Position numbers and translations under genes: made by a program. The notes under the pieces were generated by a model, which saw nothing but the letters and a program-made list of their open reading frames with translations, was not told the DNA's origin and did no database searches. Below, one piece after another: positions 20,717 to 22,147 of a DNA stretch of 64,000 nt. Source of the stretch: Halorubrum sp. BOL3-1 (GTDB taxonomy: Archaea; Halobacteriota; Halobacteria; Halobacteriales; Haloferacaceae); NCBI RefSeq assembly GCF_004114375.1, contig NZ_CP034692.1:2728001-2792000 (forward strand). Reading direction: 5' to 3'. Position 1 is the stretch's first letter, and the number at the start of each line of letters is the position of its first letter.

Positions 20717-21001
20717 ATGGAGTGGAAGCTGTTCGCCGACCTCGCGGAGATCGCGGGTGACCGCGCCGTGCCCGTCGACGCGGAGCCGGGCGACACGGTC
20801 GGTGACGCCCTCGACGCGCTGTTGGACGCACACCCGGACCTCCGGGACCGCGTCATCGAGGACGGGACCGTCGCGGACCACATCAACGTCCTCCGGAACG
20901 GGCGCAGCGTCCGCCACGACGAAGGGCTCGACGCGACGTTGGAGAGCGGCGACGAACTGGCGCTCTTCCCGCCTGTGAGCGGCGGGAGCGTCGGCCGATA
21001 G
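20717..21001 (+). CDS. samp1: SAMP1-like ubiquitin-fold modifier (MoaD/ThiS family)
   Basis: Beta-grasp protein of 94 aa, very similar in plan to Haloferax SAMP1 as I recall it: MEWKLFADLAEIAGDR opening, HINVLRNG centre, and ELALFPPVSGG end. SAMP1 is adenylated at its terminal diglycine by UbaA, then joined to protein lysines or used as MoaD for molybdopterin sulfur transfer. Here four residues (SVGR) follow the diglycine before the TAG, so the GG is not C-terminal. Either these are removed by a protease, or this copy is not activated in the standard way. A divergent gap separates it from the channel gene; deoxyhypusine synthase follows. Confidence 0.85.
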   Translation: MEWKLFADLAEIAGDRAVPVDAEPGDTVGDALDALLDAHPDLRDRVIEDGTVADHINVLRNGRSVRHDEGLDATLESGDELALFPPVSGGSVGR

Positions 21002-21040
21002 ATCGGTCGTTTCAAACGCGCGCCGACCCCAGCCGGAGGC

Positions 21041-22147
21041 ATGACCGATAGCGACGACGGGGAGTCGGAGAGTGTCGAGGGCGGTGACCGCGAGGCTCGC
21101 GACGCCGGAGACCGCGAGGAGTTCCACGCGGACCCGGTCGGCCACACGCGGGCGCTCGGCGGCATGACCGTCGGGGAACTCGTCGACGGCTACGGAGAGG
21201 CTGGCATCGGCGCCGCCGTGGTCAACGAGGCCGGCGACGTGCTCGCGGAGATGTTCGCGAACGAGGACTGCACCGTCTTCCTCTCGCTGGCGGGTGCGAT
21301 GGTGCCGGCCGGGATGCGCCGGATCGTGGCCGACCTCATCCGCGACGGGTACGTCGACGCCCTCGTGACCACCGGGGCGAACCTCACCCACGACACGATC
21401 GAGGCGATCGGCGGGAAACACCACCACGGGCGGACCCACGACCCCGAGAAGAGCCTCCGCGAACACGACGAGGGACTCCGCGACGAGGGGGTCGACCGCA
21501 TCTACAACGTCTACCTGCCCCAGGAACACTTCGCGGAGTTCGAGGGGCACCTCCGCGAGGAGGTGTTCCCGGCGCTGGAGGCCGACCCCGACGCTGAAGG
21601 CGACGGGGACGGCGGGCACGAGAACGTGAGCAACGGTACCGTCTCCATCGCGGACCTCACGTGCGAGCTCGGTCGCGCCAACGCCGACGTGAACGAGCGC
21701 GAGGGCGTCGACGAGGGACCGGGCGTCGCCGCGGCCGCCTACGAGTGCGACGTGCCGGTCTACTGCCCCGCGGTCCAAGACTCCGTGCTCGGGCTACAGG
21801 CGTGGATGTACGCCCAGACCGCTGATTTCACGCTCGACGCCTTAGCGGACATGACCGACCTGACCGACCTCGCGTTCGAGGCCGACGACGCCGGCTGCCT
21901 GCTCGTCGGCGGCGGCGTCCCGAAGAACTTCACGCTCCAGACGATGCTCGTCACGCCCCGAGCCTACGACTACGCCGTCCAGATCACGATGGACCCGGAG
22001 GCGACCGGCGGGCTCTCCGGCGCGACCCTCGAAGAGGCTCGGTCGTGGGGGAAACTGGAGAAGGACGCGCGCAACGCCTCCGTCTACGGCGACGCGACCG
22101 TGATGCTCCCGATGCTGATCGCCGCCGCTCGCGGGCGGGTGGAGTAG
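21041..22147 (+). CDS. dys: Deoxyhypusine synthase
   Basis: NAD-dependent transfer of the aminobutyl group of spermidine (or agmatine-derived equivalent in haloarchaea) to a lysine of aIF5A, an essential modification. 368 aa with an acidic N-terminal 30-residue extension. Conserved blocks: FLSLAGAMVPAGMRRIV, LVTTGANLTHDTIEAIGG, and near residue 335 SWGKLEKDARNASVYGDAT, with the active-site lysine in WGK. The loop DPDAEGDGDGGHENVSNG is a halophilic insertion. Followed directly by repeat copy C. Confidence 0.95.
   Translation: MTDSDDGESESVEGGDREARDAGDREEFHADPVGHTRALGGMTVGELVDGYGEAGIGAAVVNEAGDVLAEMFANEDCTVFLSLAGAMVPAGMRRIVADLIRDGYVDALVTTGANLTHDTIEAIGGKHHHGRTHDPEKSLREHDEGLRDEGVDRIYNVYLPQEHFAEFEGHLREEVFPALEADPDAEGDGDGGHENVSNGTVSIADLTCELGRANADVNEREGVDEGPGVAAAAYECDVPVYCPAVQDSVLGLQAWMYAQTADFTLDALADMTDLTDLAFEADDAGCLLVGGGVPKNFTLQTMLVTPRAYDYAVQITMDPEATGGLSGATLEEARSWGKLEKDARNASVYGDATVMLPMLIAAARGRVE

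Follow-up and report, generated by a model that had tools for sequence, protein, structure and literature searches.

The SAMP1 gene of Halorubrum sp. BOL3-1 encodes four residues after the C-terminal diglycine of the modifier, and the protein is probably made as a precursor; a protease, with the desampylase JAMM1 as the leading candidate, would cleave it behind GG before its use via the E1 enzyme UbaA. The open reading frame lies at 20717-21001 (forward strand) of the window, a 64,000-nucleotide stretch of contig NZ_CP034692.1, and its translation has 94 residues ending in FPPVSGG-SVGR before a TAG stop (Table 1). The NCBIfam SAMP1 equivalog model NF041918 matches residues 1-90 over model positions 1-91 of 91 with 130.4 bits (cut-off 60), a whole-protein score above the curated cut-off for SAMP1 membership, and Pfam ThiS, a MoaD-type family match, also exceeds its cut-off with 57.8 bits. 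The solved SAMP1 chains of Haloferax volcanii (2l83, 3po0 and 4hro) align with E values of about 1e-27, ending at GG. Because the NCBIfam, Pfam and structure matches all end at residue 90, SVGR represents extra residues, and the preliminary description of a SAMP1 match carrying SVGR after VSGG is borne out by the translation and by these matches. The diglycine is invariant in relatives, yet SVGR comes after it in the translated product.

Table 1. Features of the SAMP1 gene and adjacent DNA, with positions in the window
Feature	Position	Strand	Basis
Ubiquitin-like domain of SAMP1/MoaD type (residues 1-90, C-terminal VSGG)	20717..20986	+	translation; NCBIfam, Pfam and structure matches
Diglycine codons GGC GGG; VSGG unchanged at the protein level in 28 tailed genes of the genus	20981..20986	+	sequence; codon comparison
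Tail codons AGC GTC GGC CGA (SVGR), 3' of the diglycine	20987..20998	+	sequence; translation; genus comparison
Stop TAG; same stop in 24 of 25 four-residue-tail relatives compared	20999..21001	+	sequence; relatives
Conserved CGTTTCAAA element, in most genus members 24 bases from the start codon that follows; probably a promoter element for the downstream gene	21008..21016	+	genus comparison
Deoxyhypusine synthase gene, downstream neighbour	21041..22147	+	–

Comparison of the Halorubrum SAMP1 homologues, which the preliminary description had proposed, revealed post-GG tails of 3-8 residues in 34 of the 50 genus genes readable to the stop, the other 16 ending at GG. Most tails have four residues (n=29), with fewer of eight (n=3) or three (n=2), and their sequences include SVGR, TVGR, SAGR, GVGR, AADR, LADR, RSVR, SGGR, STER, SIGR and AVGR. 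The presence of tails in so many independent genomes rules out a sequencing error or a lost stop in a single genome. In a tree of the SAMP1 core and deoxyhypusine synthase, the tailed genes fall in one large clade, within which two genes that stop at GG (L018 and L024) are nested; the tree requires a minimum of six changes, a count that is approximate given low support at many forks. The tail appears to have originated early in one Halorubrum clade, with at least two later losses, and tails occur elsewhere in haloarchaea as well. Across the class, a FPPV[S/T]GG-type DNA motif is present in 381 of 391 genomes and is directly followed by a stop-like codon in 294, figures that are pattern counts in which WSN admits other residues, TRR admits TGG and some matches are not SAMP1. 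Outside the genus, 19 of 20 fetched class-wide tail candidates are SAMP1-like proteins with post-GG residues, and the remaining one (L187) is a chance motif match. In one sequence (L169, genome G103), the TGA that ends the tail of relatives reads TCA, extending the post-GG frame to 113 residues, possibly through a sequencing error.

All three GG-type modifiers detected in the BOL3-1 genome (G000), among proteins within reach of the models used, carry tails: SVGR in SAMP1, a single alanine in a SAMP1 paralogue (C3 409693-409986, L149; C-terminus VAGG-A) and SGEFTL in SAMP2 (L255; IKGG-SGEFTL). With the same family models, no SAMP1-type protein with an exposed GG was detected in this genome. The SAMP2 of genome G015 (L287) ends in IKGG-ATDGA; plasmids and viral contigs yielded no SAMP2 relatives, and a search of 400 kb of G045 found no SAMP2, while an equal search of G015 did. 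The stop of the paralogue overlaps the next start codon (L149, L196-L206), and the SAMP2 stops of G000 and G015 both lie within GTGA, where overlap with the next start is possible. In 12 of the 52 genus genomes (G001, G003, G005, G007, G012, G013, G023, G030, G034, G042, G043 and G047), the paralogue and the GG-ending protein that follows it form one open frame with no stop between them, the fusion in G042 being judged by the match table only and not by translation. The junction GG is kept in every fused gene translated, and Pfam and NCBIfam searches assign no family to the second protein, which resembles, by position and ending only, the arCOG06308 neighbour, likewise ending in GG, that Makarova and Koonin described (PMC2948915). 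The chances appear evenly balanced that this Halorubrum makes no modifier with an exposed GG, with SAMP1, the paralogue and SAMP2 all being precursors, the paralogue a two-modifier polyprotein in related genomes, and a GG-specific protease the obligatory first step of both sulfur transfer and sampylation.

Candidate enzymes for such processing are encoded in the same genome. The preliminary description had suggested looking for a JAMM-type protease, and of two Prok-JAB loci found, one is a desampylase equivalog, JAMM1 (G000 C3, 172.6 kb; NCBIfam desampylase 145 bits, cut-off 130), whose metal-binding motif HxHx7SxxD is intact as HSHPTGPANPSETD. Residues encoded after the diglycine and a JAMM with an intact motif, two of the marks of a JAMM-processed Ubl precursor, occur together. 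The single ThiF-family match is the E1 (NCBIfam UbaA, 515 bits) and there is a single MoaE; SAMP1 has both the ThiS match and the MoaE partner expected of a MoaD-type sulfur carrier. Across the genus, Prok-JAB matches above the family cut-off occur in 51 of 52 genomes, the exception being an incomplete genome, and in 46 of 46 high-quality genomes, tailed or not; JAMM co-occurrence is uninformative as a test of JAMM dependence because all high-quality genomes have a match. Genomes G036 and G045 (L191 4937-10238; L192 3005-6044) contain a neighbourhood with a desampylase, a second UbaA-like E1 (~68% identical to the UbaA of BOL3-1), a small Ubl ending in ASGG-R and a cysteine-synthase-like gene, an arrangement that recalls CysO-type systems.

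On the observed open reading frame, tail, tail distribution, invariant VSGG and partner genes, a processing pathway can be proposed. A protease, most likely JAMM1, would cut after the second glycine of VSGG and free SVGR, and UbaA, the only E1, would then adenylate the exposed glycine, readying SAMP1 for attachment to proteins and, with MoaE, for molybdopterin synthesis. In H. volcanii, the desampylase HvJAMM1 cuts SAMP1 linkages of the isopeptide as well as the linear type behind GG; in a linear SAMP1-MoaE fusion it cleaves exactly after the last glycine of SAMP1, and growth that depends on molybdopterin needs jamm1 when this fusion has to support it, although in this work MoaE, not SVGR, followed GG (PMC4443979). 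An invariant GG, a drifting tail and the failure to detect any GG-exposed modifier are most simply explained by a cut after GG. The removal of SVGR by a protease, one of two readings offered in the preliminary description, gains indirect support from the invariant GG, from a tail that is nearly unconstrained and sometimes lost, from the desampylase-family JAMM and from the HvJAMM1 precedent, whereas the cut itself we infer.

Removal of the tail by the second JAMM paralogue or by a general carboxypeptidase, rather than by JAMM1, is unlikely but the most credible of the alternatives. The second Prok-JAB gene, which adjoins a cytidylyltransferase-like gene, also has an intact HxHx7SxxD motif, and most tails are short (1-8 residues); four residues could be trimmed by a carboxypeptidase or some other protease. 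However, the single-ORF paralogue fusions would need an internal post-GG cut, and a carboxypeptidase would not be expected to make one cleanly; the published enzyme for a post-GG cut is HvJAMM1 (PMC4443979).

Processing by JAMM1 would place recognition on the modifier side of GG, and because of this the sequence after GG would be nearly free to drift. In 28 compared genes with four-residue tails, pN and pS are 0.000 and 0.41 for the VSGG codons, 0.079 and 0.294 for the SAMP1 core, and 0.30 and 0.36 for the tail codons, values that are descriptive since gene pairs are non-independent and the tail comprises only four codons. Among the 16 nearest relatives, the pN of every four-codon core block is below that of the tail, and a stricter set of 25 genes gives a matching result. 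The tail appears barely constrained, with amino-acid changes almost as free as at silent sites, and its pN/pS near 1 speaks against selection acting on the peptide it encodes. A role for the tail itself, such as holding SAMP1 inactive until regulated cleavage, could be read from a length mostly kept at four residues across a large clade, but this is improbable given the same pN/pS, the loss of the tail in two close relatives and a stop position that often goes with the neighbouring DNA in the genus comparison. The distance from the CGTTTCAAA element 3' of the stop to a start codon chosen by an automatic pick is 24 bases in 37 of 48 genes, 15 in eight and 23 in three, and the element is the probable promoter of the deoxyhypusine synthase gene. 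The position of the SAMP1 stop would seemingly be set by this promoter-like element, and those of the paralogue and SAMP2 by overlap with the next start codon, rather than by any function of the tails.

Retention of the tail in a non-conjugated or inactive SAMP1 is very improbable: no proteomic evidence on the mature C-terminus was found, but VSGG is invariant, conservation across the 90-residue core is strong, no SAMP1-type protein with an exposed GG that could replace this one was detected in the genome, and E1/MoeB chemistry requires a glycine carboxylate. The other reading in the preliminary description, a non-conjugated MoaD-like variant, is poorly supported, as MoaD function also depends on a free C-terminal glycine, both MoaD-type proteins detected in the genome are tailed, and MoaE and the E1 are present. 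Open-licence PMC papers yielded neither unprocessed use of tailed homologues nor an experiment on a tailed haloarchaeal SAMP, a scope that could miss previous accounts of tails in haloarchaea. If proteolytic maturation is correct, precursor processing, usually told as a trait of eukaryotic ubiquitin, would be commonplace among the SAMPs of a large clade of haloarchaea, and JAMM1 would act in maturation besides desampylation. Alleles with and without a tail occur naturally as pairs, which opens precursor processing to a direct test in H. volcanii.

Among bacterial sulfur carriers, HcyS and QbsE have residues after GG and CysO has a JAMM partner; these systems share a GG carrier and a JAMM metalloprotease with Halorubrum, but serve other pathways and are not of the SAMP1 family. 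H. volcanii SAMP1 (HVO_2619) belongs to the same NCBIfam equivalog and its core aligns full length to VSGG; however, it ends at GG (aligned sequences of 3po0 and 4hro), whereas Halorubrum SAMP1 adds SVGR. In the SAMP1-MoaE substrate of HvJAMM1, GG is likewise followed by a linear peptide bond, which is precisely cut (PMC4443979), but this substrate is an engineered fusion to MoaE, whereas the four-residue tail of Halorubrum is natural. The SAMP precursors of Caldiarchaeum subterraneum (Csub_C0702 and Csub_C1603) are likewise archaeal SAMP/MoaD precursors and are cut by a JAMM, CsJAMM (PMC6043591), contradicting the view in the preliminary description that the archaeal SAMPs known so far are synthesized with GG exposed; this archaeon is distant, and the likeness lies in the description as precursors and in the cut by a JAMM. 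The tailed Halorubrum SAMP1 adds to these already known archaeal SAMP precursors, and the fused paralogue is more unusual.
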